From a virus, in the IMG/VR virus record IMGVR_UViG_3300009161_006369, positions 1-26,500 of that record: a stretch of 26,500 nucleotides of DNA. The stretch is one strand, 5' to 3'. Positions 168-18,638 of the stretch are shown here, one piece after another. Made by a program: the position numbers and the translations under genes. The notes beneath the pieces are model-generated. The model was not told where the DNA came from. It did not search any database and was given only the letters and a program-made list of their open reading frames with translations. How positions within the stretch are numbered: position 1 is the first letter of the stretch; each line of letters begins with the position of its first letter.

Positions 168-358
168 TAATCTTCAACCTCGAAATAATCAGATTCAATT
201 AAAGAACTCGATTTTAATTCTTCTACAATTGCTGGGTCTTGATATAACCCTCGCATAAAAGCTCTGACGATAAGGTCTTTTGTTTCATCATCATATTCTT
301 TTGACAATTCATCCCTCAAACGGTCACTCATTGCTCGAATCCACTTAATGTTTTCCAT
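167..358 (-). CDS. Unknown 63-aa acidic phage protein
   Basis: Encodes a 63-residue, mostly helical-looking acidic protein (begins MENIKWIRAMSDRL, ends with a Glu/Asp-rich tail). No domain is recognised. It lies between a promoter-like extended -10 box only five bases upstream of the ATG and a downstream gene whose ATG overlaps its stop. No good Shine-Dalgarno precedes the start; if the -10 box is used, the mRNA would be almost leaderless. Position in a compact same-strand series and the coupled stop support it as a real gene. Function unknown. Confidence 0.65.
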   Translation of the reverse strand: MENIKWIRAMSDRLRDELSKEYDDETKDLIVRAFMRGLYQDPAIVEELKSSSLIESDYFEVED

Positions 359-363
359 GGCTT

Positions 364-372
364 ATTATATCA
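364..372 (-). promoter_or_regulatory. Extended -10 promoter box (TGATATAAT)
   Basis: The minus strand reads TGATATAAT, a full TGn-extended -10 element, between the hairpin at 376-401 and the ATG at 358. There is no TTGACA-like box 16-18 bases upstream. Five bases separate the box from the ATG, so the predicted transcript start falls at about the initiation codon. The same TGATATAAT or a close variant recurs at 1297, 2346, 2598 and 6168 on the same strand. Confidence 0.5.
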
Positions 373-375
373 GGT

Positions 376-401
376 AGAAGGGGAGATTTCTCTCCCCTTC
401 T
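376..401 (-). terminator. 11-bp hairpin between two small genes
   Basis: A perfect inverted repeat, AGAAGGGGAGA / TCTCCCCTTCT, with a 4-nt loop lies directly after the stop of the minus-strand gene at 405-626. No strong U-tract follows on the minus strand, so it may be a weak terminator, an RNA-processing site or an mRNA-stabilising structure. Confidence 0.5.
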
Positions 402-404
402 AAT

Positions 405-626
405 TTAGTCTTCCCCTTCGATTTCTCCACATAATACAATCCGGCAAATATAACCAGAAAATGTATCTGTAGCGGGATGTAATATTTCATCAATATAATC
501 TACTTGTACTTCTGGATTAAATTCATTTTTAGAGTGGATAGCCAAAACCACTTCTGTATCTTGGCTATACTGTTCATATTTTTTATCTAATTCCTGAAGT
601 TTGGCGATTAGTTCTTTAAGTGTCAT
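405..626 (-). CDS. Small phage protein, LKELIxKLQ / TEVVLAI type
   Basis: A 73-residue protein with an N-terminal helix (TLKELIAKLQELDKKY) followed by a beta strand TEVVLAI. This layout is common among small phage proteins of unknown function that begin with a 'KELIxxLQ ... DTEVxI' segment. Its ATG overlaps the stop of the upstream Api92-like gene by four bases (ATGA), so the two are probably translationally coupled. A hairpin at 376-401 follows the stop. Assignment is to a general type, not a named family; function unknown. Confidence 0.7.
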   Translation of the reverse strand: MTLKELIAKLQELDKKYEQYSQDTEVVLAIHSKNEFNPEVQVDYIDEILHPATDTFSGYICRIVLCGEIEGED

Positions 627-1267
627 ACTTCTTCACTCTCCTCAAACATTTCAGCCCATTCATCCCATCCGCCCCATTTACCATCTTCCACTGCTTCTTT
701 AAATGTTTCATAAGAGCAAGTTTCTTCATATTTACCATCTTCACAGGTAAACTCATAATGGGAATCGTTTTCAATGGAACCAGACACCATTTCAAAAGTG
801 GCATTAGGATACATTGTAGATAATTTTATTACAAATTGTTCTGGTGTTCCCCAAGGAGAATTGAAGGTGTAGATGATTGTATTAAAATCAGGCAGTTCTT
901 TGGATTCACATTGAGAGGCATCCCATTTAACACCCCAGTTGTTAAGGTTCCAAGAATACCAATCATAATATCCAGTTGCGATGAATGCTTGTTGACTCTT
1001 TAATGCATTTTTGGCTGCATCAGAGTACAAAGGGTGATTGCTGTTGATGATTTCAGTAAGACCCATTGATGTAGAATGTGTTTCTTTGTTGTAATCAAGA
1101 ATCAATTTATCTACTTCAATATAGGGAGATTTTGTGTCCACTAATATCTCAGGCATAGGGATGAAAGAATTATAAAAATTCTCAACATCTACTTTGTTTT
1201 TAAAAGCGGTGTATTCTTCATTAGTTTGAAAAATACAAGTGAGTGAGTTCATGACCCAATTAGGCAT
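623..1267 (-). CDS. Api92-like ferredoxin-fold phage protein
   Basis: A 214-residue protein with the signature of the Api92/YubB-type family: an N-terminal MPNWVMNSLTC (usually MPNWCxNxLxI), a central FIPMPE, then YDWYSWNLNNWGVKWDAS, a tryptophan-rich W-NWG-KWD block around residues 100-117, and FNSPWGTPEQFV further on. The C-terminus is acidic. The family occurs on phages and plasmids and has a predicted ferredoxin-like fold without an established reaction. An AAGGG-type ribosome site lies upstream, as does an extended -10 box at 1297-1305. The last four bases overlap the next gene's start. Family call is confident; role unknown. Confidence 0.85.
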   Translation of the reverse strand: MPNWVMNSLTCIFQTNEEYTAFKNKVDVENFYNSFIPMPEILVDTKSPYIEVDKLILDYNKETHSTSMGLTEIINSNHPLYSDAAKNALKSQQAFIATGYYDWYSWNLNNWGVKWDASQCESKELPDFNTIIYTFNSPWGTPEQFVIKLSTMYPNATFEMVSGSIENDSHYEFTCEDGKYEETCSYETFKEAVEDGKWGGWDEWAEMFEESEEV

Positions 1268-1292
1268 TGTAGGAATACCCTTTCTTGTGATA

Positions 1293-1541
1293 CTAGATTA
1301 TATCAGATAATTCAAACTCTGCATCGTTATAGCGAACATTTTTTATGCTATGATTTTCCATGTCTTGATGATGAGTGATTATCTCATTTCCCCAAGCTCC
1401 ACCTTCTGCTACAATACAGATCTGAAGCATATAAATAATATCATTGAATTCTAATGCATACAATTTACCAGCAACATCATAATGGGGAATAACGCTATCA
1501 GGAATTTCCATTGTTCCTGTAATATTAAAATTAACTTTCAT
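1293..1541 (-). CDS. Unknown 82-aa small phage protein
   Basis: An 82-residue protein (begins MKVNFNITGTMEIPD) that looks mostly beta-stranded at the N-terminus. The start is supported by AGGA about eight bases upstream and by a good sigma70-type promoter at 1559-1587. Its terminal SDII codons and stop overlap the TGATATAAT box of the next gene downstream. No family recognised. Probably expressed from its own promoter, with readthrough into the Api92-like gene 25 bases on. Confidence 0.65.
   Translation of the reverse strand: MKVNFNITGTMEIPDSVIPHYDVAGKLYALEFNDIIYMLQICIVAEGGAWGNEIITHHQDMENHSIKNVRYNDAEFELSDII
1297..1305 (-). promoter_or_regulatory. Extended -10 box before the Api92-like gene
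   Basis: Minus strand TGATATAAT, 29 bases before the ATG at 1267. It overlaps the last codons of the 1293-1541 gene. No clear -35 element. Spacing leaves room for a normal leader carrying the AAGGG ribosome site. Confidence 0.45.
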
Positions 1542-1558
1542 TCTTATATCCTAGCTTT

Positions 1559-1587
1559 ATTGTAAAGGGGACTAACTTCATTGTCAA
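1559..1587 (-). promoter_or_regulatory. Sigma70-type promoter TTGACA-17-TACAAT
   Basis: On the minus strand a perfect TTGACA (1587-1582), a 17-base spacer and TACAAT (1564-1559) precede the 82-aa gene by 17 bases. This is the best match in the window to the housekeeping bacterial consensus and suggests host polymerase recognition, as for an early phage gene. The promoter sits within a GC-rich partial inverted repeat (AAAGGGGA ... TCCCCCTCTTT) that may also help terminate the preceding gene. Confidence 0.75.
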
Positions 1588-1595
1588 TCCCCCTC

Positions 1596-1636
1596 TTTAG
1601 ATAAATAAACCACCCTACATAATTTATTTATCTAAA
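1596..1636 (-). terminator. 14-bp perfect AT-rich hairpin at the glycosylase gene end
   Basis: TTTAGATAAATAAA (1596-1609) and its exact reverse complement (1623-1636) flank a 13-nt loop and overlap the stop codon of the gene at 1632-2309. The stem is almost pure A/T and has no U-tract directly after it. It probably acts with the adjacent GC-rich repeat at 1564-1598 as a terminator or 3'-end stabiliser. A role as a DNA-binding palindrome cannot be excluded. Confidence 0.55.
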
Positions 1637-2309
1637 ACTCGAAAGACAATTGTGGCTCCAAACATTCTGACCAATATCTAGAATCTTTTTGTCCCTGATT
1701 AATATCCCAATACAAGCATCTGGTAATATATGGAGATGATTTTATTTTGGCAGAATAATCCATCCAAATATTCTCTCCATCAATATAAGCCTGAATATCC
1801 CTCTTAGATTCTTTTCTGTATCCTTGAGTGTTCATATCAAGCAATCTTAACATATGTACATCTAAGCATACAATTTGAGCCTGATTTGGATAGCATAGTT
1901 CAAGGGCAAAGGATGTTTTAGCAAGTCCAATGCCTTTAAGGAACAATGCCAATCTGTTTCTCATCTCCATCCAAGATTCATTACTCGATTTTCTAAAAGT
2001 ATCTGGGTTCTCGAAAAACTTGTCTCGAAAATCCCAAATGCTTTCTGTTCGTTGATTATGACATCCACCTTTAGAGATATAGAGGAGATGAGATAATTGT
2101 TCTTTATCATCAATCCACTGCTCGAAATTCTTAATATGATTGTAGCATCTCACATTAGATTGCCAAGTGGAGTGAATGGATGTAAAAGCGAACAACCATC
2201 TTTTAAATATTTCTCCATCAGATTGTGGTGTGATGGAATTCCAGTAGGACGAGTATGTGGATATTTTAGATGAATCAAAACATCCAAAGATTGTATTGAG
2301 AGTGTTCAT
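1632..2309 (-). CDS. HhH-GPD superfamily DNA glycosylase
   Basis: A 225-residue protein with the hallmark of the endonuclease III / HhH-GPD base-excision family. A helix-hairpin-helix FLKGIGLAKTSFAL sits at about residues 123-136, followed by VCLDVHMLRLL, where Asp150 matches the essential catalytic aspartate. Lys131 in the hairpin is near the position used for Schiff-base chemistry in bifunctional members, but the spacing is off by one, so lyase activity is uncertain. The C-terminal four-cysteine iron-sulfur loop of endonuclease III is absent. It would remove damaged bases from phage DNA; the substrate cannot be read from sequence. It has an AAGGA ribosome site and a TGATACAAT box upstream. 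With uvsE it forms a small DNA-repair complement. Confidence 0.75.
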   Translation of the reverse strand: MNTLNTIFGCFDSSKISTYSSYWNSITPQSDGEIFKRWLFAFTSIHSTWQSNVRCYNHIKNFEQWIDDKEQLSHLLYISKGGCHNQRTESIWDFRDKFFENPDTFRKSSNESWMEMRNRLALFLKGIGLAKTSFALELCYPNQAQIVCLDVHMLRLLDMNTQGYRKESKRDIQAYIDGENIWMDYSAKIKSSPYITRCLYWDINQGQKDSRYWSECLEPQLSFEF

Positions 2310-2345
2310 TCCTTATCTTTCTATGTAGGGGTTAGAAGATAATCT

Positions 2346-2354
2346 ATTGTATCA
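2346..2354 (-). promoter_or_regulatory. Extended -10 box (TGATACAAT) before the glycosylase gene
   Basis: The minus strand reads TGATACAAT. The TGA is also the stop codon of the preceding gene (2352-2576). The box lies 36 bases before the ATG at 2309, leaving space for the AAGGA ribosome site. Confidence 0.45.
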
Positions 2355-2576
2355 GCCTACTACGATATTGTCATCAAAAATACCGACATTGTTTGGAAGA
2401 GATTTTACATCAAAGCGAATGTTAAAATACTTGTCTACTTTAATTCTTCTTGACTTCTGGATAGGGTCATTAGAGACAATGTGAATATTCTTTACCTTTG
2501 TGATAAAAACATAATCACCGGGTTTCGCACCAAAGTTTCTAACAACACGAGCACGGATAAGAGCACGATTTCGCAT
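2352..2576 (-). CDS. Unknown 74-aa basic phage protein
   Basis: A 74-residue, Arg/Lys-rich protein (begins MRNRALIRARVVRNFG) with a GAKPGDYVFITKVKN stretch suggesting a small beta-barrel, and a hydrophobic C-terminus. A strong AAGGAG ribosome site sits seven bases before the ATG. An extended -10 box (TGATATACT) lies just upstream in the divergent gap with the plus-strand gene at 2613. No family recognised; the basic N-terminus would suit nucleic-acid binding, but this is speculation. Confidence 0.65.
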   Translation of the reverse strand: MRNRALIRARVVRNFGAKPGDYVFITKVKNIHIVSNDPIQKSRRIKVDKYFNIRFDVKSLPNNVGIFDDNIVVG

Positions 2577-2597
2577 AACATTTCTCCTTAGGGCTTA

Positions 2598-2606
2598 AGT
2601 ATATCA
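2598..2606 (-). promoter_or_regulatory. Extended -10 box (TGATATACT) in divergent gap
   Basis: Minus-strand TGATATACT lies 21 bases before the ATG at 2576, leaving room for AAGGAG. It sits directly against the proposed start of the divergent plus-strand gene. Confidence 0.4.
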
Positions 2607-2612
2607 GATAGT

Positions 2613-3704
2613 ATGAGTGTGTCAAGAACTATTTTAAAGGGAATTTTATATGTCTGTAAAGTAGGGTATAAAAATAATATGCAAGACAAACATTTAGTTA
2701 TAGTACACACAAGAGAAGACAGAGATGTATTTATTAACAAGGTAGAGTATTCAAAAACAGTATATCATCCAGATGTAGATGGTGGCAAAGCTGAATCTGG
2801 AGATATAATTGTTGATAAGAAACAATGTATGGATTGGATATTCGCAAAATACATTGTAGATAATTATGATAATCTACATGAATATACAATTTTCTGTCAA
2901 GCAATTCCAGATGATCATGTGCACGAACCTTTATTAGCTATTAATTCTACATTTAAAGGTGGATTTGGATCTTTGTGTTATGCCAGATCAATTTACAATC
3001 AATATTATTTTGCTGGTGATAACCCAAGATATCATCCAATCTCTTTCGTGGCTGATTTAATTAATCTAGGTTTAAGAAATGCAGATAATATTAATAAATC
3101 AATATTTCTTTGTCATTGTGGCGCTATATTTTTTGTTCATAGAGATAATATAAGAAAAAGACCAAAATCATTCTATCAAAATATAATTGATATGGACGAT
3201 GATGAATTATTGCTCGAAAAATACATTAATCATGAGCCCCCCGATTTTTTCAAGAAGCAATTAGATAAAGCTCATCCTAGTTTATCTCATCTAAATATTA
3301 AAGATAAATTATTAGCTACATATGTTAAAAATAAAAGAGCTGATTTTTTTGGAACATGTATGGAGCCTTTGTGGTTTCTTGTGTTTTGTAATGATGATCT
3401 CTTTAATAAAATTAATAATGGACAAGCAGCAATGGGAAATAGATTTAATATTAATCTAAATTTATCTTCTTATAATATTGATGCTGGAGCTAACACAGGG
3501 CCATTTAGTTATACACCAGGTATCTCTATTATGAATTTTAAAAGACTCGAAAATTCTTGGTTCGATTTTGATTGCTCGAATTATCAAAAATGGCATAAAA
3601 CCTTAATTGAGAAAACTATCATAACAGGTAAAATGTTTGGGATAGATGGCAGAGGATATTTGGAACACTTAAAAATGATGGGTGTTAAACATATATCATT
3701 TTAA
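2613..3704 (+). CDS. DUF3431-like protein, possible glycosyltransferase-like enzyme
   Basis: A 363-residue protein. Two blocks recall the DUF3431 family: FAKYIVDNYDNLHEYTIFCQAIPDDH (about residues 77-102; the family has 'Y-HHIV-NYD-L-D-TVFLQG-P-DH'), and CGAIFFVHRDNIRKRP followed by SFYQNII (about 169-192; the family has 'GAQFAVSR-I-RP-FYE'). Such proteins occur near glycan-biosynthesis genes and are suspected of sugar transfer, but the reaction is not established. The ATG at 2613 lacks a ribosome site; the in-frame ATG at 2679, with GGG 12 bases upstream, is an alternative that removes 22 residues and keeps both motifs. It is a plus-strand insertion in a minus-strand region and ends in a hairpin next to tRNA-Arg. 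It could modify surface glycans or phage DNA/protein (inference). Confidence 0.65.
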   Translation: MSVSRTILKGILYVCKVGYKNNMQDKHLVIVHTREDRDVFINKVEYSKTVYHPDVDGGKAESGDIIVDKKQCMDWIFAKYIVDNYDNLHEYTIFCQAIPDDHVHEPLLAINSTFKGGFGSLCYARSIYNQYYFAGDNPRYHPISFVADLINLGLRNADNINKSIFLCHCGAIFFVHRDNIRKRPKSFYQNIIDMDDDELLLEKYINHEPPDFFKKQLDKAHPSLSHLNIKDKLLATYVKNKRADFFGTCMEPLWFLVFCNDDLFNKINNGQAAMGNRFNINLNLSSYNIDAGANTGPFSYTPGISIMNFKRLENSWFDFDCSNYQKWHKTLIEKTIITGKMFGIDGRGYLEHLKMMGVKHISF

Positions 3705-3708
3705 ATAT

Positions 3709-3734
3709 ATCCCCTCTGGTTTATTAGAGGGGAT
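3709..3734 (+). terminator. Hairpin terminator between DUF3431-like gene and tRNA-Arg
   Basis: ATCCCCTC (3709-3716) pairs with GAGGGGAT (3727-3734) around a 10-nt loop. It follows the plus-strand gene stop by four bases and ends two bases from the 3' end of the minus-strand tRNA-Arg, so it may serve both converging transcripts. The U-tract is weak on both sides. The same C4/G4 stem type recurs at 4919, 7369, 8733 and 11013. Confidence 0.6.
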
Positions 3735-3736
3735 TA

Positions 3737-3808
3737 TAGCTCCATCAAGAATTGAACTTGAAATTAAACTTTAGAAGAGTCTTGTTATATCCGTTTAACT
3801 ATAGAGCC
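3737..3808 (-). tRNA. tRNA-Arg (UCU)
   Basis: Read on the minus strand, the 72-nt sequence folds as a complete cloverleaf: acceptor GGCTCTA / TGGAGCT with G-U at the first and sixth pairs, D stem GTTA/TAAC, anticodon stem AGACT/AGTTT with loop CTTCTAA (anticodon UCU), T stem TCAAG/CTTGA with loop TTCAATT, and discriminator A. CCA is not encoded. It would decode AGA/AGG, common Arg codons in these AT-rich genes. Confidence 0.9.
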
Positions 3809-3828
3809 TTGTTACCACTTACATATCT

Positions 3829-3834
3829 ATTATA
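3829..3834 (-). promoter_or_regulatory. TATAAT box upstream of tRNA-Arg
   Basis: Minus-strand TATAAT predicts a transcript start about 14 nt before the tRNA-Arg 5' end. A copy of the polar CTCGAAAA motif abuts it at 3835. Confidence 0.45.
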
Positions 3835-3879
3835 CTCGAAAAATCTAGTCTTGCCAATACATTTCTCGATTTTTATAAG

Positions 3880-3952
3880 TTCCCCCGCCTCAGTACGATC
3901 AAGGAATTTCAGCTCCAAAAACTGATGTGATGCCAGGTTTCACTACAGGGGA
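3880..3952 (-). tRNA. tRNA-Gln (UUG) with an irregular T arm
   Basis: A 73-nt cloverleaf on the minus strand: acceptor TCCCCTG / CGGGGGA with the U1-A72 pair typical of tRNA-Gln, D stem GTGA/TCAC with a GG-containing loop, anticodon stem TCAGT/GCTGA with loop TTTTGGA (anticodon UUG), and discriminator A. The T arm is unusual. The stem CCTTG/TGAGG ends in a G53-U61 wobble where G-C is nearly universal, and the loop ATCGTAC has A54 and U58 exchanged relative to the usual U54-A58. It may be a weakened or specialised tRNA. CCA not encoded. Confidence 0.8.
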
Positions 3953-3968
3953 ATAATCTAACAAAAAT

Positions 3969-3974
3969 ATTATA
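3969..3974 (-). promoter_or_regulatory. TATAAT box upstream of tRNA-Gln
   Basis: Minus-strand TATAAT, preceded directly by TG, predicts a start about 10 nt before the tRNA-Gln 5' end. Confidence 0.45.
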
Positions 3975-3983
3975 CAAACAAAA

Positions 3984-4057
3984 TAGCCTGTAGGAGGATT
4001 GAACTCCTGGTCTCCTCCGTGAAAGGGAGGCATCTTAAACCACTCGACTAACAGGCC
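3984..4057 (-). tRNA. tRNA-Glu (UUC)
   Basis: A 74-nt cloverleaf on the minus strand: acceptor GGCCTGT / ACAGGCT, a D arm with GTGG in the loop, anticodon stem CCTCC/GGAGG with loop CTTTCAC (anticodon UUC, the usual tRNA-Glu loop), T stem AGGAG/CTCCT with loop TTCAATC, and discriminator A. CCA not encoded. Confidence 0.93.
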
Positions 4058-4067
4058 ATAGGTTTAG

Positions 4068-4076
4068 ATTATACCA
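4068..4076 (-). promoter_or_regulatory. Extended -10 box (TGGTATAAT) upstream of tRNA-Glu
   Basis: Minus-strand TGGTATAAT predicts a transcript start about 4 nt before the tRNA-Glu 5' end. This suggests the gene has its own promoter rather than being only part of a tRNA operon. Confidence 0.5.
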
Positions 4077-4164
4077 CAAAAAAAAGGTGAAAGCAAAATT
4101 TATCTGTAAAAAGACATTAGGTCTTTATGACTCGAAATATTATATTTGAATACAGGTGAAAGAT

Positions 4165-4782
4165 ATGCCAATTGAAGTGAAGTGTGTAGGTTGTAATAAA
4201 AATGTCATGAGATATCCTTGTGAATTAAAATCAAATAATCAATATTGGTGTTCTCATAAATGCAGATATCCAGATAATAAAAAAAGACTAGTTTCATGTT
4301 TAAAATGCAAAAAAGAATTTAAAAAATCAAATGCTGAATGTATTAAATTTCCTAATAATTTCTGTTCTCATTCATGTTCAGCTTCTTATAATAATACTCA
4401 TAAAAAATACGGTACCAAAAGATCAAAACTTGAAATTTACTTAGAAGAACAAATCAAAGCACATTATCCAGACTTAGAATTAGTATGTAATCAAAAATCA
4501 GCTATAGAATCAGAGCTCGATTTTTATTTTCCAGAATTAAGATTTGCTATTGAATTAAATGGTATCACACATTATGAACCTATTTATGGTGAAGACAAAT
4601 TCGAAAAGATACAAAATAATGACAAGAGAAAAATAATAGCTTGTTATGAAAAAGATATTGAACTTGCTATTATTGATTCTTCATCTTGTAGTTATTTAAA
4701 TGAAACAGCAAAAAATAAATATAAAATATTAGTGTTTGATTTACTCGAAAAAGTTAAAAACAGAAAGCCCTCAAATCAATGA
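4165..4782 (+). CDS. Zinc-ribbon, Vsr-like (EDxHD/DUF559-type) endonuclease, probable homing enzyme
   Basis: A 205-residue protein with two N-terminal Cys4 modules (C7/C10/C29/C33 and C45/C48/C67/C71, each CxxC ... CSxxC). A nuclease core follows: LDFYFPELRFAIELNGITHY (D119, E130, N132, H136) and a downstream NDKRKIIACYEKDIELAIID. This D ... ExNGxxH ... DxxK layout is that of Vsr-fold, DUF559-like PD-(D/E)xK nucleases. I chose ATG 4165 because AGGTGA six bases upstream makes a good ribosome site; the GTG at 4156 is in frame but lies inside that site. The gene is on the plus strand between tRNA-Glu and tRNA-Asn, both minus strand, the placement expected of a selfish homing gene. No intron is visible. 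Cleavage target unknown. Confidence 0.8.
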   Translation: MPIEVKCVGCNKNVMRYPCELKSNNQYWCSHKCRYPDNKKRLVSCLKCKKEFKKSNAECIKFPNNFCSHSCSASYNNTHKKYGTKRSKLEIYLEEQIKAHYPDLELVCNQKSAIESELDFYFPELRFAIELNGITHYEPIYGEDKFEKIQNNDKRKIIACYEKDIELAIIDSSSCSYLNETAKNKYKILVFDLLEKVKNRKPSNQ

Positions 4783-4789
4783 GGGCTTT
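4764..4789 (+). terminator. Intrinsic terminator of the endonuclease gene
   Basis: AAAGCCCTC (4764-4772) pairs with GAGGGCTTT (4781-4789) around an 8-nt loop; the stop codon lies at the base of the second arm. The symmetric A- and T-rich flanks make it usable from both sides, including for tRNA-Asn, whose 3' end is three bases away. Confidence 0.7.
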
Positions 4790-4791
4790 AG

Positions 4792-4864
4792 CTCCTGGGG
4801 CTGAGCTCGAATCAGCAACCTCGAAATTAACAGTTTCGCTCTCTTCCTATTGAGATACCCAGGA
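4792..4864 (-). tRNA. tRNA-Asn (GUU)
   Basis: A 73-nt cloverleaf on the minus strand: perfect acceptor TCCTGGG / CCCAGGA, D stem TCTC/GAGA, anticodon stem CGAAA/TTTCG with loop CTGTTAA (anticodon GUU), T stem GCTGA/TCAGC with loop TTCGAGC, and discriminator G as in bacterial tRNA-Asn. CCA not encoded. Two copies of the polar CTCGAA motif (4806 and 4820) fall inside it, in the T loop and at the anticodon stem edge. Confidence 0.93.
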
Positions 4865-4875
4865 CCATCAAATAT

Positions 4876-4881
4876 ATTATA
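4876..4881 (-). promoter_or_regulatory. TATAAT box upstream of tRNA-Asn
   Basis: Minus-strand TATAAT predicts a transcript start about 5 nt before the tRNA-Asn 5' end. A polar CTCGAAAT copy lies two bases upstream of it (4883). Confidence 0.5.
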
Positions 4882-4910
4882 CCTCGAAATTTAAGATTAT
4901 CAACACTCTT

Positions 4911-4942
4911 AAAAAAAATCCCCTCAGGTTTAATTAAGGGGA
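4911..4942 (-). terminator. Rho-independent terminator with eight U
   Basis: On the minus strand TCCCCT (4942-4937) pairs with AGGGGA (4924-4919), followed directly by eight T (4918-4911). It ends the 5006-6982 minus-strand transcripts and/or the candidate small RNA. Confidence 0.85.
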
Positions 4943-4974
4943 ATGAGTGAGTGTAAAGCTCTCGAAATCCTTAC
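4911..4974 (-). ncRNA. Candidate small RNA of about 64 nt
   Basis: Between the stop of the 5006-5272 gene and tRNA-Asn, the minus strand has a TATAAT box (4986-4981), then an imperfect hairpin with arms GAGAGTAAG and CTTTACACTC (one mismatch, one bulge), then a textbook terminator. Together they define a compact RNA of two stem-loops with no open frame. The alternative is that this is only the 3' end of the upstream mRNA, with a chance -10 match. No family recognised. Confidence 0.4.
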
Positions 4975-4980
4975 TCTCTA

Positions 4981-4986
4981 ATTATA
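4981..4986 (-). promoter_or_regulatory. TATAAT box before the candidate small RNA
   Basis: Minus-strand TATAAT preceded by TTTTCGAGG, the reverse complement of a polar motif copy at 4988. Predicted start at about 4974. There is no protein-coding gene between it and the terminator at 4911. Confidence 0.4.
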
Positions 4987-5005
4987 CCTCGAAAATTCAG
5001 ATATG

Positions 5006-5272
5006 CTACTTAAAGATCTTGTATTTATCAAAAACACTGTAAAATATTTCTCTACTTATATTTAAATCAACATTAATACCAGAAACAGTGGCAATTACAG
5101 TGGCAGAATTGTTTAATAGGGAATAGATAAAGACAGTGTAGTTATTGTCATTATCTTTAAAATATACACTCTTAGTATTCTTGCCTTCTCTCACTGAAAT
5201 AAGATCGCAGCTTTTGATATAATTTAATACATCACTTATATTAATATCTTCTCTAACAGCATCAATTACCAT
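5006..5272 (-). CDS. Unknown 88-aa phage protein downstream of uvsE
   Basis: A small protein (begins MVIDAVREDINISDVLNYIK) with alternating helix and strand character and no recognised motif. I prefer the ATG at 5272 because AGAGGTGG lies eight bases upstream; the in-frame GTG at 5281 falls inside that site. The start overlaps the last 11 bases of uvsE, so the two are likely translationally coupled. The intrinsic terminator at 4911-4942 closes the unit. Function unknown. Confidence 0.65.
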   Translation of the reverse strand: MVIDAVREDINISDVLNYIKSCDLISVREGKNTKSVYFKDNDNNYTVFIYSLLNNSATVIATVSGINVDLNISREIFYSVFDKYKIFK

Positions 5273-6161
5273 TTTTTCCACCTCTGTTTATCATTTCCAA
5301 GATAGCATGGTCTTTGCCTTTTAATTCTACATCCCATATTACATTTCTACCATAATCAGGAGGTAAATTATCAGCCATGTCCTTATGTGCTCGTGTATTA
5401 TCTTTACCCTCTGAATAATGAAATATTGGCTCGAATTTCCAGGTATTATAAGATGCATTAAAAGCTTCTTCTTCTGTATATCCATCAGAGAGCATTTTAT
5501 GATGCAATATATCAAATGTAATAGAATAACTAGGGAAATATTTAATTAAATTCCTTATGCTCCAAACACCCTTAGCATTATCATTATTCTCTAACACTAA
5601 TCTACTCTTTACACTGTCAGATAATCGCTCGAAATTCTTCTTAAATTTATCTGATATCTCTAAAGGATCTCCATCTTTACGACAATGTATATTTAATGGA
5701 TTATATGTGCTTCTCTCTAATTCAAATAAATCAAATAATTCCGCATGACTCTCTAAATCTGTTATAGAATTATTAATCACTTTGGGATCATCAGAAGTAA
5801 GAGAAATATATTCTGATGGATGTGCACTTACTCTAATACCTGTTTCTTTAATGGCCCTCTTAACTTTATCAATCTCATACTGTATTAATTTATAATTTGG
5901 CAGCTCAGATATATTTAAGTTAACCTCTGGATGATTTATTACAGGGACCAAATCACTCGAAATTCTATATCCCTTAATCTCCATAGCTGCACAATGTCTA
6001 ATAATTTTCTCTGTAGTGTTAAAATTATTTCTTACAATATCTGACAGCTTCTCTAATGACTCGATTTTTGATTTGCTCGAAAAACTCTTATATGTCATTG
6101 TTCGAAATTTAATATTTTTCTCGGCCAACACATTAGAGATACAACAAAGAGATAGTTTCAT
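5262..6161 (-). CDS. uvsE: UV-damage endonuclease (UvsE/UVDE)
   Basis: A 299-residue, full-length UVDE-family protein. These TIM-barrel metalloenzymes nick DNA 5' of UV photoproducts and other lesions and start alternative excision repair. The metal-binding residues are visible in order: H77 (VINHPEV), H114 (VSAHPSEYISL), H159 (NIHCR), E191 (VLENND), D217 and H220 (TFDILHH), H248 (IFHYSEG), H259 (RAHKDMAD) and E279 (DVELKGKD). The start ATG has TGATATAAT six bases upstream and only AGG three bases away, so initiation may be leaderless or depend on readthrough from upstream. It overlaps the following small gene. With the HhH-GPD glycosylase it would protect phage DNA from damage. Confidence 0.95.
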   Translation of the reverse strand: MKLSLCCISNVLAEKNIKFRTMTYKSFSSKSKIESLEKLSDIVRNNFNTTEKIIRHCAAMEIKGYRISSDLVPVINHPEVNLNISELPNYKLIQYEIDKVKRAIKETGIRVSAHPSEYISLTSDDPKVINNSITDLESHAELFDLFELERSTYNPLNIHCRKDGDPLEISDKFKKNFERLSDSVKSRLVLENNDNAKGVWSIRNLIKYFPSYSITFDILHHKMLSDGYTEEEAFNASYNTWKFEPIFHYSEGKDNTRAHKDMADNLPPDYGRNVIWDVELKGKDHAILEMINRGGKNGN

Positions 6162-6167
6162 ACACCT

Positions 6168-6176
6168 ATTATATCA
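6168..6176 (-). promoter_or_regulatory. Extended -10 box (TGATATAAT) at the uvsE start
   Basis: Minus-strand TGATATAAT lies six bases before the uvsE ATG. Standard spacing would put +1 on the A of the start codon, giving a leaderless mRNA. There is no -35 match upstream; a terminator hairpin occupies that space. Confidence 0.5.
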
Positions 6177-6181
6177 AACAA

Positions 6182-6213
6182 ATAAGAGAGATCATATTAA
6201 TGATCTCTCTTAT
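6182..6213 (-). terminator. 14-bp perfect hairpin between the 67-aa gene and uvsE
   Basis: ATAAGAGAGATCAT (6182-6195) and its exact complement (6200-6213) enclose a 4-nt loop. It follows the minus-strand gene ending at 6221 and precedes the uvsE -10 box. The sequence after it on the minus strand (TTGTTTG) is only a partial U-tract. The same DNA could also bind a dimeric regulator next to the uvsE promoter. Confidence 0.6.
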
Positions 6214-6220
6214 AATATAT

Positions 6221-6424
6221 TTAAATATATCCCACCATATCTAAACTTAATTGCATTTGTCTCATCACTGGGATAAAATCATTTACATCTATCTTCTCAT
6301 CTAATAAATGCTCGAAAATTTTAAGTGCATTCATCTTAGCACTCTCTGGCATATCAGGATAATTATAAAAATAAGAAACATAATCAATCAAAGCATCATA
6401 CAACATTTTATTTTTCTTTGTCAT
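6221..6424 (-). CDS. Unknown 67-aa helical phage protein
   Basis: A 67-residue, mostly helical protein (begins MTKKNKMLYDALIDYVSYFY, includes MPESAKMNALKIFEHLLDE). An excellent GAGGTGG ribosome site lies upstream, and only nine bases separate it from the stop of the radical-SAM gene, so the two form an operon. A hairpin follows. No family recognised. Confidence 0.7.
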   Translation of the reverse strand: MTKKNKMLYDALIDYVSYFYNYPDMPESAKMNALKIFEHLLDEKIDVNDFIPVMRQMQLSLDMVGYI

Positions 6425-6433
6425 CTTTCCACC

Positions 6434-6982
6434 TCATAATAATTTAATTCCCATCTTCCTTAAATATATTTTATCTATATAAGGAAAACCAGAAATATAT
6501 CCATCACCTATTTCTATTTCTTGTTCCATCATTAATTCCTCTGGTTTAATTTTATCAGAGAAATATATAATGTTCTGATTCTCACTCCCCCTTAATCCAC
6601 TCGAAATTCTTAATTCATCCTCATATCTACCATCAATCAAAACATCAATATAATTTAAACAATCCCTTAAACTAGAATTATTAATTTCATCTATTGTATA
6701 TCCAGAAAATAATATAATCCCCTTAGGTAAATTTAAATCATATAAGGGAATTAATAAATCTAAAATATCCCCTTGCTCTAATGGATCTCCCCCCGATATT
6801 GTCACACCACAAACATCCCCTATTTCTTTAATTATATCTAAGGGAAGAATATTTAATCCCTCGAATTTCCAAGTGGCAGGATTAAAACAATTCTTACATC
6901 CCTTAGAACATCCCTGAGTCCATATTACTAATCTTTTTCCTGGACCATTTACTTTAGATGTATGTATAGAATGAATTAACAT
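6434..6982 (-). CDS. NrdG-like radical SAM activating protein
   Basis: A 182-residue radical-SAM protein. The cluster motif CSKGCKNC (C25, C29, C32; CxxxCxxC) lies in a WTQGCSKGCKNCFNPATW context, preceded by NGPGKR, which closely matches class III ribonucleotide reductase activase NrdG (GPG ... GC-xxC-xCFNP-TW). VTISGGDPLEQ supplies the SAM-contacting GGDP motif. The family reduces SAM at a 4Fe-4S cluster to form a glycyl radical on its partner enzyme. No NrdD or other glycyl-radical enzyme is in the window, so the substrate is unproven, and an activase for another enzyme remains possible. The ribosome site (GGGAG, 12 bases away) is weak and spans a copy of the polar motif. Confidence 0.8.
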   Translation of the reverse strand: MLIHSIHTSKVNGPGKRLVIWTQGCSKGCKNCFNPATWKFEGLNILPLDIIKEIGDVCGVTISGGDPLEQGDILDLLIPLYDLNLPKGIILFSGYTIDEINNSSLRDCLNYIDVLIDGRYEDELRISSGLRGSENQNIIYFSDKIKPEELMMEQEIEIGDGYISGFPYIDKIYLRKMGIKLL

Positions 6983-7046
6983 AGGCTCGAATTTCTCCCT
7001 TATATGTATTATAAAATGTTGAACCTAATATAAGAGCTAAGGTAGA

Positions 7047-7070
7047 AAAGATATAATTAATTGTATCTTT
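7047..7070. promoter_or_regulatory. 24-bp near-perfect palindrome, operator-like
   Basis: AAAGATATAATTAATTGTATCTTT is self-complementary at 11 of 12 pairs, with no spacer. It lies about 65 bases upstream of the radical-SAM gene start on the minus strand. The form suits a dimeric repressor, but no protein is known to bind it. Confidence 0.45.
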
Positions 7071-7198
7071 CATATATAGGCTCGAAAAAAAGGAATATGC
7101 GAAATATATGCAGAAAATTACCTATTACCACTCATTTTAAATAGTTCAAATATTAAAATGGTCTTTGAAGGAAAAAAGCCCCGATAAATAGAAGATCA

Positions 7199-7281
7199 AC
7201 TTAATATATTTTTGTATGGACTTAATTTATTATTGTATGGATTAAGTCTATTATTGTATGGATTAAATCTATTTTTGATCC
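7199..7281 (+). repeat. 21-bp tandem direct repeats (about 4 copies)
   Basis: Units start at 7199, 7220, 7241 and 7262. The first three share the pattern AYTWARTNTATTNTTGTATGG (21 bp, loosely) and end in TTGTATGG. The fourth is 20 bp and degenerate, ending TTTTTGATCC. A 21-bp period is two DNA turns, so a protein bound to each unit would lie on the same face, as with iterons. Confidence 0.8.
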
Positions 7282-7285
7282 AATT

Positions 7286-7316
7286 AATATTCTAGCTAAG
7301 AGAATATTCTTTTTTC
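7286..7316 (+). terminator. Terminator-like hairpin with T-tract, no upstream gene
   Basis: AATATTCT (7286-7293) pairs with AGAATATT (7301-7308) around a 7-nt loop and is followed by CTTTTTT on the plus strand. It directly follows the 21-bp repeats. The AT-rich stem is weak. No plus-strand gene precedes it, so any transcript it ends would be non-coding. Confidence 0.5.
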
Positions 7317-7368
7317 CCTTATATATATTTTTCGAATTATTTGTTTGTTTTGATCCTAAAAATAATAA

Positions 7369-7405
7369 ATCCCCTTATAGTAAATGTCTATAGGGGGATA
7401 TTTTT
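7369..7405 (+). terminator. Strong orphan intrinsic terminator
   Basis: ATCCCCTTATAG (7369-7380) pairs with CTATAGGGGGAT (7388-7399) through 12 pairs, one of them G-U, around a 7-nt loop and runs into ATTTTT. It is the same C4/G4 type that ends coding genes elsewhere in the window, yet no plus-strand gene lies upstream back to 4782. Confidence 0.7.
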
Positions 7406-7471
7406 AATTCATATATGTTGTTTAAGAATATTGGATTTAATATATTCTATGTATATTTATCTGATTCCTTT

Positions 7472-7554
7472 GTCTCCACTGCATATATATATTTATCTAT
7501 AAAACGTTTATGTAGGGTATTAAAATGGGATTATGTCTCCACTAGGTCTCCACT
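7472..7554 (+). repeat. Three direct copies of GTCTCCACT
   Basis: Exact 9-mers at 7472-7480, 7535-7543 and 7546-7554, all in the same orientation; the last two are 11 bases apart (about one helical turn). I saw no other copy in the window. They lie upstream of the zinc-ribbon nuclease gene and may be binding sites for a regulator. Confidence 0.65.
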
Positions 7555-7750
7555 TTGATTTCTTTTGTGTATGTATTCTTTTTACACTTATCATTCTTTG
7601 CATTTTTGAGCATAAAAATTAGTGTTATTTCTATTTTTACAAGCTGAATGTATTTTATCAGGTATGAACACGATACATTCGAATTATAACAAGATAGTGG
7701 TTGATTTTGAGAGATTCTTTATTGTTGTTATGGTTTGTATAAATGTGTGT

Positions 7751-8728
7751 ATGAGAGAAGATAATTTTGTTTGTAGTGGTTGTGGTGTTAGCGGTTATAA
7801 AAGGCCGAGTGTGTTAAAAAAATTTAGGAATCATTTTTGTTCTAGAGATTGTAGTAGTAAACACAAGAATACTAATGTTGAAGTAAAGTGTTCTAGTTGT
7901 AATGTTTTGATTAAAAAAAAACAAAGTACATTAAATAAGAGTAAAAATCATTTTTGTTCTACAACTTGTTTTGGTAAGTTTAAAGAAAATAAAATCAAAT
8001 TAAATTGTTTGCAGTGTAATAATATTTTTTTAAGAGAGTTAAGTGCTATTAGATTAAATAATTTTTGTTCTTGTGATTGTGCTTATAAATACAGAAACAA
8101 AGCAATAACAATAAATTGTTCACAATGTAATAAAATATTTTTGAAAGCACCAAGCCAAATAAAAAATAAAAAGAATAATTTTTGTTCTGTAGAATGTCAA
8201 CATAAATTCGCAAATAAAAAGGTTCAAGTAAAATGTCTTGTTTGTGATGTTTTGTTTATGAAGTATTTATGTAATTCTATAAAAAACCCTAGACATTGTT
8301 GTTCAAAAGAATGTTATTATATTTTGATAAGAGAAAAAAAAGATTGGGGTAGTACGAGAAGCAAATTAGAAATTGCTATAGAGAATAAATTAAATCTGTT
8401 GTATGGTTTTGAGATTAGATACAACAAGACAGATATTGGTTATGAATTAGATATATATATTCCTGTATTGGATTTAGCAATAGAAATAAATGGAATATTT
8501 CATTATGAGGCAATCTTTGGTGAAAAAGAATTGTTAAGAAGACAAGAAATAGATAAAGAAAAAGTGGTGGAGTGTAGGGAGCTTGGGATTAAGTTATTTG
8601 TTATTGATGTAAGTAAAGATAAAAATAATAAGAAGGTTATGGCTCAAAGGATATTAGAGGTGGAGGGGATTGTTAGGGATAGGATTAGGGAATTGGGTTA
8701 TGTTGGTCAGATGGTTTTAGAAATTTAG
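7751..8728 (+). CDS. Five-zinc-ribbon, Vsr-like endonuclease
   Basis: Taken from ATG 7751 the protein has 325 residues. Five Cys4 modules, each CxxC then (F/C)CSxxC after about 17-19 residues, repeat at a 36-39 residue period (first cysteines C8, C47, C86, C123, C162). A nuclease core follows: YELDIYIPVLDLAIEINGIFHY (D234, E245, N247, H251), then EIDKEKVVECRELGIKLFVID. The core is closely similar to that of the nuclease at 4165-4782, which has two modules. The frame stays open upstream to 7622, but that N-terminus has no cysteine module and lies in AT-rich non-coding sequence; 7751 matches the paralogue's start best. No clear ribosome site, so the start is uncertain. Likely a homing or mobile endonuclease whose zinc ribbons read DNA (inference). 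Confidence 0.75.
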   Translation: MREDNFVCSGCGVSGYKRPSVLKKFRNHFCSRDCSSKHKNTNVEVKCSSCNVLIKKKQSTLNKSKNHFCSTTCFGKFKENKIKLNCLQCNNIFLRELSAIRLNNFCSCDCAYKYRNKAITINCSQCNKIFLKAPSQIKNKKNNFCSVECQHKFANKKVQVKCLVCDVLFMKYLCNSIKNPRHCCSKECYYILIREKKDWGSTRSKLEIAIENKLNLLYGFEIRYNKTDIGYELDIYIPVLDLAIEINGIFHYEAIFGEKELLRRQEIDKEKVVECRELGIKLFVIDVSKDKNNKKVMAQRILEVEGIVRDRIRELGYVGQMVLEI

Positions 8729-14660: not shown

Positions 14661-17600
14661 ATGAAAAGATATTCAGCAACATCAAAAAAAGCTCAACAAT
14701 GGATTAGAGAAGCAAGTAAAGACAATCTTTTTTTATGCTCAATTTATGATGAATTAGGGCATTTCAAGCAATCAGAGAGTATTTATGAATCTACAATCAA
14801 AATAGCACGATTTATAAGGGTTTCTGAAGATATTTTAGAAACGCCTGAAAACGAAGATGAAGAGGATGTTGATGTTCTTGTAATTGATGATGTTAACACA
14901 GGCAGATATGATTATGGCGATGTAAGTAGAATATCTGACCATGGTAATGTTGATATTGCGGATGAAACAAGTGCTAGTAAACAGCATATTAATGAATTTA
15001 TTCGTGCTTTATCAATGGGTGGTTCTAATGTCAGAAAGAGCTTGGAGCATTTAAGTCTTGCTGTTAGTAGATGGAGTAATCCTAATTTATTTAAAAGTTC
15101 TATCTTGTTGGCATTAAGTTATTATTATAAGAATCCTTTAATTGCTTCTGATGTATCTGTTTTTGTAGGTAATCAAAAATTATTAGCAGATGATATTGTT
15201 AATGGTGATATTGATCAAGACACTGTGGCATTGTTAGCTGAATTTCACAATAAAGGTGTTGAGAAGAGAAATAATTTTAATAGTGTGTATCAGCAAGTAA
15301 ATGAATTGCTTAAAACACACAGACCAGAATTGGCAAACAATGATCATATTATTAAGTTTATCTTATCAAGTTATAATGATCTTGGTTCCGAACTAACTCC
15401 CTATCAAATTAAGAATGTCATAAAAGATACAAACCTATTAGATGCTAATGCAGTGGATAGAGCTTTAATGTATGTAGAAGCAGCTAAATCCAAAAATCTT
15501 CCAAAATCTTCAAGTTTTAGTTATTCTTTGCTTAGAAGTATGATATTCTTTTTCTCAAAATATCCACAAGAAACTGTATTTAAAAGGGTGATAGCTTTAT
15601 TAGACACTGACAGAAGTTTATACGAATATACTCTTGGATTTTCTGGTTACAATTACTTAGAGACATTATTATTTGGCAGAGAAAATGCTATAAGTCAAGT
15701 AGAAATGAAATTATATCCTGAAATAGTGGATGGTTTTTTACAATCCCCTCTTCCACCTTACAATAGTGGATTAGGTCATTATGATCAACGAAGAATAGCA
15801 ATCCAATATATAAATCCTTTATTAATAGCCAAAGCTCCAATGAATAAATATGGAACAGATAACCAAGCTTTAGGCTTTGAATATTTTGCTGACAAAATGG
15901 AAGCATTTAATTATATGTCAGAAACTTATCCTGATGTTAAAAATTATCTTTGGTTAGCTGCTGGACATCAAATGATTCAAATGGATGGAGTAAATGGTAA
16001 AAAAGCATTTGAAAAGATGAGTCAGATTTGGCGAAGCAATCACAATATAATTTTAAGTCATTTTACGCCATCTTTAATGCCTGTTTACATCAAATATTTT
16101 TCTAATTACAAAAAAGATTTCACATTAAGTTCAGTTTTCGCTCCATTTAATACATGTTATTTGTACATTGGTGAAAAGATATACGATTATTCGCTAGCAG
16201 AAGTAAAACGTATATCTGAACAATTTGATTTATCCACTGGATTGCCTGATGATAATAAACTTACAATAGAACAATATGAAGTGGTCAAGCAACATTCAGG
16301 AAAATATCTTGATGGTAGACTAACTGGTTTATCAAATTTTAAATATGAGCAAAATATTATAGATATTTATTTTAGTTTTCCATTTGCTTATCAAATTCCA
16401 ATTGAAACTCTTGATAATTTTTATGAATTTGTCAAACATAATTATTCTGAAACGTTTAATATGGGAAGTTGTGTTAAAAACTTATTTATTTTAGGAAGAT
16501 TCGACACAGATTTATTTAAAGATGTTGCTGATTTATATATAGAAAGTATAAATGATCAAAACAAAGATTATTTATTAAGATTAATAACAGAGAAGAATAA
16601 ATCTGAAGTTCCATTTATTGGAAATTATGATTCATTAAAAGGTTTAGGTGATGTTGGTGGAAAATATCCAGATTTAACAAGTACTGAATTATATGCATGT
16701 CTGGGCAAACCTGAAGATGCATATAAAATAAGAGAAGCAATAGCAAAAAGTAAAAATTATTCTCAAATCATACCTCATAGTGAAGAATATAATAAGTTGT
16801 TTATTTTATTTGCTCAAAACTATAACATTCGTGGCAGAGATCCATCTATGTTAATAAGTTTAGTGGATTCTGTAATTCATGTAAATACTCCAAACAGAAC
16901 ATTTCAACAGTTCCATTATTTATCAGCTGCTATTGGTACATTTGATTTTAGCAATGTAAGTAGAAGAGCTTCTGATGCTTTGACCACTGTTAATTTTAGA
17001 AGTGAAACTAATGATATGTTCATTGGTGATATGTTCATAAGAGAATCTGGTATGAAAGCTGAACCCATCATCAATATTGGTGGTTTTGATGTTCTTTTTG
17101 AAATGACAGAACAAGAAATAAAAGAATGGTTGGAAAGCTTAAGGTTTAGAAATCCAGATAAATTTTTAAATGTATGGGTGGCTTATCGCCCTTATATAAA
17201 TAAATTCAATACATTAGCATTAAAATTAGATCGTAATATATTATATAACAAAATTTTATTTGATTTCTATAAAAAATTTTTTGATGGGATAAGATCTTTA
17301 AAACCCGATATATTTGATGATTTAGGTCCCGGATCAAGTTTTGAGAAAATTGTTACAGGTGATGTTTTTAGAAATTCAATTTATGAACATAAACAATATA
17401 TAAGAGCCAATTTAAGTGGTGGGTCAGAATGTGATGAAGAGCTTTCGAGGGTTTACAAACTTAATGTAAGATTACCTAAAAAAGTAATGTTACCTAAACA
17501 AGATTTAAGAACAATGATGACATCTTTTGGTGACAAAGAATCATTATCTAACATTGGTAAAATAGTTCAAATATTTGGAAATATAACATCTCAAATATTA

Positions 17601-18638
17601 GATGCTTATTCTTTTGATTTGTGTAGGAAAAATGGATATCCCACCAAAGGATTCGATTCTATTCCTGATCTACAATTGAAAGGCAACATAATCCACGATT
17701 TTGCTAATTTATTACCTACAAATTTAAATCAAAAATTTAATGGTTACGCTCAATATTTCTTAACTAATTTCCCTGATGATAAAAAGGGTGATTTGAGATT
17801 GGTGGGTGATGCTTGGAATTCTAGAATTTCTTTGTGGGATGATGATGATAATGTATTAGAAGAAGGCTTGGTATATGAATTTTCTGCTAAATATAATGTT
17901 TCAGATTTATCCCAGATTATTAAACACAACAGTTTTAGACAAGTAATGAAAGATTTGCCTGTTGAAAGTAAAGCATTCGCATATCAATTCTGTGATATTA
18001 GAGGATTACCAACAGAAGCAGACAATCAATCAGGAAGATATAAGAAATTATTTGCTGGTACTCAACAGGTATTTCTTGATGGATTGAAAGTAAAGTTACC
18101 TGATTGGGCATCTTTCACTGGCAAATCTGGAGACTTAACATTAAGATTTTTGAGAAGAGATGAACCACAAGGAATGTTCTTGGGCAGATTGTCAAAATGT
18201 TGTCAAGAACCTGAAAACTGGGCAGCTTCTTGTGCTTATGATGGACATTTGAATCCTAATGCTGCTTTTGCTGTATTTGAAGGACCCGAAGGATTAGTAT
18301 TTCAATCTTACGTTTGGGCAGACGAAGATGGTAATGTTTGTTTTGACAGCATCGAAAGTCCTATGTATGATTTCAGATCCAAATATAAAAATGATGGTCA
18401 ACAGCTTATGGAGGATTTTGCTGATTCATTGCCATCTGGAAAAATATGTACAGTGGGAAACAATTCATTTAGTTTCAATTCAGCAAACAAAAAACTATCC
18501 AATCCAACAGAGACAAATAAAATTCTATATGTAGCTCAATTATTATATGATTTTTGCCCAGCTAACTCTAGTTCTTTGTATACAGCAGATTCACAATCTC
18601 AATATAGTGTTGGTGTAGGTAAAAAAGAATCCAGCTGA
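14661..18638 (+). CDS. Giant paralogue A (1325 aa), C-terminal CCQ domain
   Basis: A 1325-residue protein, first of three consecutive paralogues. A helical N-terminus (about residues 27-52: IYDELGHFKQSESIYESTIK) is shared by all three, as are an FIRALSMGGSNVRKSL block and a YYYKNPL block in the first 180 residues. The long helical middle is less conserved. At the C-terminus are LPDWASF, then LRFLRRDEPQGMFLG, CCQ (1180-1182), an AASCAYDG ... NAAF segment, SYVW (1216-1219) and DSIE (1229-1232), then a helix and a GNNSF segment. No signal peptide or membrane span. Length and clustering would suit virion or injected proteins, and the conserved C-terminal polar and cysteine residues suggest an enzymatic or ligand-binding domain; both are inference. 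AGG ribosome site before the ATG. Confidence 0.9.
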   Translation: MKRYSATSKKAQQWIREASKDNLFLCSIYDELGHFKQSESIYESTIKIARFIRVSEDILETPENEDEEDVDVLVIDDVNTGRYDYGDVSRISDHGNVDIADETSASKQHINEFIRALSMGGSNVRKSLEHLSLAVSRWSNPNLFKSSILLALSYYYKNPLIASDVSVFVGNQKLLADDIVNGDIDQDTVALLAEFHNKGVEKRNNFNSVYQQVNELLKTHRPELANNDHIIKFILSSYNDLGSELTPYQIKNVIKDTNLLDANAVDRALMYVEAAKSKNLPKSSSFSYSLLRSMIFFFSKYPQETVFKRVIALLDTDRSLYEYTLGFSGYNYLETLLFGRENAISQVEMKLYPEIVDGFLQSPLPPYNSGLGHYDQRRIAIQYINPLLIAKAPMNKYGTDNQALGFEYFADKMEAFNYMSETYPDVKNYLWLAAGHQMIQMDGVNGKKAFEKMSQIWRSNHNIILSHFTPSLMPVYIKYFSNYKKDFTLSSVFAPFNTCYLYIGEKIYDYSLAEVKRISEQFDLSTGLPDDNKLTIEQYEVVKQHSGKYLDGRLTGLSNFKYEQNIIDIYFSFPFAYQIPIETLDNFYEFVKHNYSETFNMGSCVKNLFILGRFDTDLFKDVADLYIESINDQNKDYLLRLITEKNKSEVPFIGNYDSLKGLGDVGGKYPDLTSTELYACLGKPEDAYKIREAIAKSKNYSQIIPHSEEYNKLFILFAQNYNIRGRDPSMLISLVDSVIHVNTPNRTFQQFHYLSAAIGTFDFSNVSRRASDALTTVNFRSETNDMFIGDMFIRESGMKAEPIINIGGFDVLFEMTEQEIKEWLESLRFRNPDKFLNVWVAYRPYINKFNTLALKLDRNILYNKILFDFYKKFFDGIRSLKPDIFDDLGPGSSFEKIVTGDVFRNSIYEHKQYIRANLSGGSECDEELSRVYKLNVRLPKKVMLPKQDLRTMMTSFGDKESLSNIGKIVQIFGNITSQILDAYSFDLCRKNGYPTKGFDSIPDLQLKGNIIHDFANLLPTNLNQKFNGYAQYFLTNFPDDKKGDLRLVGDAWNSRISLWDDDDNVLEEGLVYEFSAKYNVSDLSQIIKHNSFRQVMKDLPVESKAFAYQFCDIRGLPTEADNQSGRYKKLFAGTQQVFLDGLKVKLPDWASFTGKSGDLTLRFLRRDEPQGMFLGRLSKCCQEPENWAASCAYDGHLNPNAAFAVFEGPEGLVFQSYVWADEDGNVCFDSIESPMYDFRSKYKNDGQQLMEDFADSLPSGKICTVGNNSFSFNSANKKLSNPTETNKILYVAQLLYDFCPANSSSLYTADSQSQYSVGVGKKESS

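Follow-up and report, generated by a model that had tools for sequence, protein, structure and literature searches.

The window analysed here is a stretch of 26,500 nucleotides that makes up the complete 26.5-kb IMG/VR record IMGVR_UViG_3300009161_006369; since this is the entire record, the window is a fragment of a genome, and its source is a huge phage, a large uncultured bacterial virus. Its left part carries an array of the short word CTCGAWW in a single orientation, which is the subject of this report. The word reads WWTCGAG on the minus strand, which codes for most genes of the array block. These minus-strand genes encode an Api92-like protein, an 8-oxoguanine glycosylase-like protein, UvdE, NrdG, and four transfer RNAs (tRNAs); a DUF3431 gene and an HNH-type gene lie on the plus strand, and to the right of the block are homing-endonuclease-like open reading frames (ORFs) and giant paralogous proteins. 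Genes were called mechanically, and the ORF classes are therefore approximate. The short genes, tRNAs, and nucleotide and repair genes suggest that the region is of an early type. The features are as follows.

179..7087, plus strand: array of 31 CTCGAWW (WWTCGAG on the minus strand), 0 reversed, by direct count
Plus strand, CTCGAWW starts, first part: 179, 207, 334, 1638, 1984, 2010, 2024, 2121, 3213, 3546
Plus strand, CTCGAWW starts, second part: 3575, 3835, 3865, 4131, 4516, 4744, 4806, 4820, 4883, 4961
Plus strand, CTCGAWW starts, third part: 4988, 5430, 5628, 5956, 6060, 6076, 6311, 6600, 6860, 6986, 7081
7088..7621, no strand: upstream array edge (in the sense of the minus-strand genes), an intergenic gap at a divergent gene switch
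623..1267, minus strand: Api92-like (DUF1281_C) gene, 0 copies within it in the window; the marker that found most relatives
1632..2309, minus strand: 8-oxoguanine glycosylase-like gene, 5 copies, including the 14-bp-spaced pair 2010/2024
2613..3704, plus strand: gene with a DUF3431 hit, opposite-strand, 3 copies in genome polarity
4156..4782, plus strand: HNH-type gene, opposite-strand, 2 copies within and 1 just beyond (4131)
4791..4864, minus strand: tRNA-Asn gene, two copies within (4806, 4820)
5262..6161, minus strand: UvdE gene, 5 copies within
6434..6982, minus strand: NrdG (anaerobic ribonucleotide reductase activating protein) gene, the first leftward gene of the array

A first-pass annotation, made from the letters of the window, had reported 31 plus-strand copies and no reversed copy at 179–7087, and had counted TCGA following a C at 32 of 36 sites before 7.1 kb and at 0 of 21 beyond; recounting gave the same numbers. 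Its statement that neither sense occurs in the remaining 19.4 kb was wrong, as three reverse copies lie right of the array (12836, 17443, and 22305), a number near chance for that length. Over the whole window, 34 copies of CTCGAWW were found on both strands together versus 5.4 ± 2.3 in dinucleotide shuffles, and none of 100 shuffles reached 34. The three letters preceding CGAG in the array copies were TTT in 20, ATT in 6, and AAT in 5, with TAT in none. Polarity was constant across tRNAs, gaps, and genes of both orientations, as had been noted before, and the sudden end of the array at 7087 was real: GC skew flips sign at 7088..7621, and relatives show comparable edges where gene direction diverges.

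Two relatives were found by searches with UvdE and the glycosylase, namely L009 (about 86% DNA identity to the window, motif 26:0) and L011 (99% identical, 17:0). In L009, the gap aligned to 7088..7621 keeps two further motif copies. A search with the Api92-like protein yielded nine more close contigs (L013–L021, 26 to 358 kb), representing six distinct phages after removal of overlaps. Every close relative had a one-strand array around the Api92-like gene, in the same neighbourhood. No array was present in distant Api92 relatives (L022–L029) or in other UvdE-bearing phages (L106–L136, UvdE 29–58% identity), in which the strands were roughly balanced, and an annotated phage collection contained no close relative at the DNA level. 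The 358-kb contig G009 has near-identical (97%) ends of 545 bp and encodes DNA polymerase III alpha, ribonucleotide reductase, terminase, and a Mu-like portal. This Mu-type portal (G009 48118–50499; L032:8118–10499) is apparently fused at its C-terminus to an MTES_1575/DUF559 restriction-nuclease-like domain. A 5.5-kb contig of the family (L138, JALRHN010000140.1; motif 19:0) was binned in a GTDB 'Candidatus Kapaibacterium' metagenome-assembled genome (MAG), a weak hint that Kapaibacterium is the host. The motif count in this MAG was 250:301 versus 455:435 for controls, and because the MAG was not enriched, a host signal was rejected.

Array statistics were obtained from eight non-redundant phages with 159 kb of arrays. 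A total of 350 copies were in one orientation and 1 was in the reverse; from 11 (third-order Markov model) to 23 (second-order) reverse copies were expected, so that the reverse word is avoided inside arrays. Forward enrichment was more than tenfold. Each phage carries 30 to 60 copies packed in a single early-type gene region, the arrays spanning 7 to 36 kb with about one copy per 150–450 bp and a median spacing of 152 bp. They lie in GC-skewed gene blocks of mostly one direction, begin where gene direction diverges or close to that point, and include motif-free stretches. Outside the arrays both orientations were at the Markov background, with 97 copies observed in genes versus 103 expected; the reverse orientation is thus selected against only inside. 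Array-polarity copies in outside opposite-strand genes (4 versus 16 expected) gave a post hoc hint that is not used as support. The array is confined to at most about 36 kb of the 358-kb genome, with background counts elsewhere in the 358-kb and 300-kb contigs. No other polar word of similar strength was found in G009, G006, G004, G003, and G005; weaker ones may be coding repeats. In another phage contig (G013 40000–70000), GCAGCAG is one-sided, 41:1 in 20 kb, and this bias probably reflects coding repeats.

The first-pass annotation had named three checks: enrichment over a Markov model, strand counts over the whole genome, and conservation of the motif at non-aligned positions in relatives. 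The enrichment and the strand imbalance both held, and so did selection at non-shared positions. Among aligned relatives, motif sites were kept in 68% of cases versus 30% for scrambled words, and in the G009–G008 pair in 73% versus 22% for all 7-mers; the totals come from seven pairs that share some phages and are not fully independent. Many aligned sites were gained or lost between relatives, sometimes with an amino-acid change, and polarity was always unchanged. Phe-Glu was spelled TTCGAG in 74 of 149 cases inside arrays versus 13 of 654 outside. The motif used all three codon phases, in agreement with the earlier view that codon use is no explanation, and a protein-level repeat or codon effect was rejected on this ground.

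The array is indifferent to gene direction. Density was 2.0 per kb in sense genes, 1.8 in opposite-strand ORFs, and 3.2 in intergenic DNA, with 257 of the 350 copies (73%) within ORFs; opposite-strand ORFs of at least 180 aa contained 15 sites in 7.4 kb (2.0 per kb) and none reversed. The opposite-strand array genes include clpP (Pfam E 5e-72), a methyltransferase, and the DUF3431 gene. The clpP gene in the array of G002, at 7236–7820, has 2 copies, versus 0, 0, and 1 in homologues outside (74–76% identity); L009 5645–6190 has 3 and its homologue outside the array, at 77% identity, has 0; the DUF3431 gene has 3 in the window array and its G009 homologue outside has 0. Similarly, UvdE contains copies in the window, L009, and G009, in all of which it is next to nrdG, and none in G005, G003, and G002, whose UvdE falls within a motif-free stretch. 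Since these homologues and the UvdE genes in motif-free stretches largely lack the word, location rather than the gene decides motif content. Copies also reach about 0.1–2.6 kb upstream of the first leftward gene, nrdG, and in G002 they do so across an opposite 439-aa ORF. L011, otherwise 99% identical to the window, lacks the segment 4059–4826 with the HNH gene, and the motif copies in this segment already have the correct polarity.

Among single-base variants of TTTCGAG, strong one-sidedness was observed only when A replaced the first or the second T; it was weak for A in the final position (34:7) and for TTTAGAG (45:20). As near-miss words were mostly not enriched, specificity is sharp. Pairs 7–13 bp apart were absent versus 9.6 expected under local jitter (0 of 2000 simulations), and 24 pairs 14–20 bp apart were found versus 9.7 expected; the 24 include some sites repeated in several relatives, and about 20 are separate by inspection. 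The spacing points to a bound particle that occupies about 14 bp (or nt) and accepts or even prefers others nearby. The loop of a terminator-like hairpin at L009 8644–8680, GGGGAGA-TTTTCGAG-TCTCCCC, contains the motif, with another copy lying 14 bp upstream; the hairpin is conserved at homologous sites in G009, G002, G008, and G010.

Several other candidates were considered. A promoter element was rejected, there being no flanking information beyond about −4 to +8, no −10 association, and no start-codon peak; a few TATAAT occur downstream of the motif near tRNAs, with no clear excess overall. Structured RNA was rejected as well (unpaired probability of the motif 0.44 versus 0.42 in a transplant control, with no general folding trend). 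Rfam detected only tRNAs in the array block of the window, and a literature search for the word itself returned nothing relevant. In a different phage (L106 160–11208, UvdE 58% identical), a strict repeat, TCTTAAA followed after about 15 nt by CTATAATAGTATG, sits at apparent ORF starts with ATG immediately after the −10-like box, and looks like a phage promoter for leaderless mRNAs.

Contigs of the family often end inside or near the array (window, L009, L011, G008, G010, and, within a few kb, G006), which may mean that a variable region assembled poorly, that retrieval was biased, or that an unusual DNA structure has left its trace. Right of the array in the window, three successive giant paralogous proteins of about 1300 aa are encoded at 14661–18638, 18673–22587, and 22621–26499. 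They share 26–28% identity with the first, similar N-termini, and a conserved C-terminal domain (CCQ...) that is present too in Microcystis phage MaMV-DC.

The explanation we favour, tentatively and at somewhat below an even chance, is that the array consists of strand-polar recognition sites in one early-type region, read by a phage-encoded, enzyme-like DNA reader for strand-specific processing. A phage-encoded protein would read double-stranded WWTCGAG/CTCGAWW in one orientation with enzyme-like specificity, would cover about 14 bp, and could sit head-to-tail on neighbouring sites. It may nick or mark only one strand of the array segment, as in phages with localized single-strand interruptions, and the outcome would be a segment with two differing strands, possibly aiding leftward expression, DNA entry or packaging, or recombination. 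We infer that DNA rather than RNA is read, because opposite-strand genes and the leaders upstream of the first gene carry the motif equally; a phage-encoded reader and a nick or a mark as its product are proposed rather than observed. The reverse word would be purged only inside arrays because a reversed copy near a one-strand cut would give a double-strand break. It is close to an even chance that the family possesses a regionally confined strand-polar DNA code, in which a phage-encoded enzyme and about 60 head-to-tail WWTCGAG give an early segment a direction or strand mark, with the reverse selected against only inside. A code of this kind would be previously undescribed. Of the functional strand-polar DNA motif proposed in the first-pass annotation, the polarity and the selection are borne out, and the reading on DNA is probable. 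Its nickase suggestion has the closest precedent in phages (PMC3517423, PMC11780129), and by analogy nicking may occur here.

Several points weigh against this explanation. The nick step is argued from likeness to phage tf and from assembled contigs, and no candidate for the enzyme emerged from the analysis. Array density is about one copy per 150–450 bp versus tf sites 0.7–9 kb apart, and nicks spaced by 14–20 nt would free short oligonucleotides. In every array the polarity is the one in which the majority of the block's genes point, and entire gene blocks inside arrays are without the motif, so that a transcription-linked role also fits.

One such role, unlikely but the most serious competitor, is an RNA-level signal: an RNA-binding protein or RNase would bind or cut WWUCGAG within long early transcripts that run leftward, and polarity would result from transcription of only one strand. 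The agreement of polarity with the majority gene direction in all arrays, the edges at divergent switches, and the motif-free stretches that coincide with gene blocks are consistent with it, and the 14-nt exclusion would equally fit an RNA footprint. However, real opposite-strand genes carry the word at the same 2.0 per kb as sense genes, copies lie upstream of nrdG and in G002 across the opposite 439-aa ORF, an unpaired RNA context is not preferred, and copies occur inside a tRNA gene. The earlier exclusion of mRNA signals is likely to be right, with the reservation that long read-through transcripts could still contribute. Polar transcription control on DNA is rather improbable; here a bound protein, stoperator-like or acting through a non-template-strand elongation signal, would stop or license the leftward RNA polymerase. 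The asymmetric site, the footprint of about 14 bp, and an orientation tied to block transcription resemble the 13-bp, asymmetric, orientation-dependent repressor sites of phage L5 (PMC9283540). But L5 sites are promoter-bound or intergenic and follow transcription, whereas the array is largely genic and is unflipped in opposite genes, with no −10 partner or other signal at a fixed distance.

We regard a genome-wide translocase signal of the Chi or KOPS type, raised in the first-pass annotation, as very unlikely. The polar, gene-blind, short, and sharply defined word would suit it, but only about a tenth of the genome or less is filled (at most about 36 kb of 358 kb), there is no mirror-image array, counts elsewhere are at background, and the word showed no rise in the one MAG possibly from the host. 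Still less probable is that the sites all point in one direction to escape a Type III-like restriction enzyme requiring a pair of inverted sites, for which T7 and EcoP15I provide a precedent; such evasion accounts for the avoided reverse orientation but leaves the more than tenfold forward gain, and the background of both orientations outside arrays, unexplained. An artefact of codon use, protein repeats, GC skew, or shared ancestry has practically no probability left. The arrays do lie in skewed, mostly one-direction gene blocks, but this reading is already refuted by the use of all codon phases and the Phe-Glu spelling, by the same genes outside arrays being mostly without the motif, by the failure of Markov models, and by gains at new places.

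The family purges the reverse word and pays for its 30–60 polar words in one region with constraints on codons and amino acids. Array phages therefore make the purpose of one-strand polar words testable by comparison. Whatever its identity, the reader would be a sequence-specific, direction-sensing protein that might serve as a tool for nicking, methylation, or binding. The arrays also provide a sequence tag for spotting this phage family and region in metagenomes.

Three known systems can be compared with the array. Chi and KOPS are short polar signals that are read regardless of genes and are spread over whole replichores or chromosomes. The array word is likewise polar, short, and gene-blind; it differs in forming one block with background elsewhere and in lacking a genome-wide pattern of polarity switches.

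Stoperators of Cluster A mycobacteriophages (L5 and TipsytheTRex) occupy promoters or short gaps between genes, are oriented with transcription, and are bound by the immunity repressor of the phage (PMC9283540). As in the array, many asymmetric, oriented sites of about 13 bp are repeated over the phage genome. In contrast, array sites in the opposite-strand clpP, methyltransferase, and DUF3431 genes keep the array polarity, and the sites are mainly genic (257/350 in ORFs) rather than promoter-bound. Both properties that define stoperators proper, orientation following transcription and promoter or intergenic location, are thus absent from the array.

Localized nick motifs, at which virion DNA has a ligatable nick, are known in tf/LUZ24-like phages, in the Rembedalsseter group (TACT/RTGMC, WACTRTGAC), in phiKMV-like phages, and in T5, and the function of such one-strand motifs is still not known (PMC3517423, PMC11780129). 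Phage tf has 14 nick sites, all on the top strand, with 12 in the early half and with sci13 and sci14 in minus-strand genes (PMC3517423); recounting the tf motif as a control gave 14:0. In 61 phages of the Rembedalsseter group, 88% of nick sites are in genes and their spread is uneven (PMC11780129). The array differs from these motifs in its word, in its number of sites (30–60 per 7–36 kb versus about 14 in 46 kb), in its median spacing of 152 bp versus 0.7–9 kb in tf, in its 14–20-bp pairs, and in being known here from assembled contigs alone. It resembles them in being a short asymmetric word on one strand only (350:1 in the array), in having sites mostly in genes (73% in ORFs) and blind to gene direction, and in being uneven along the genome and conserved among distant relatives.

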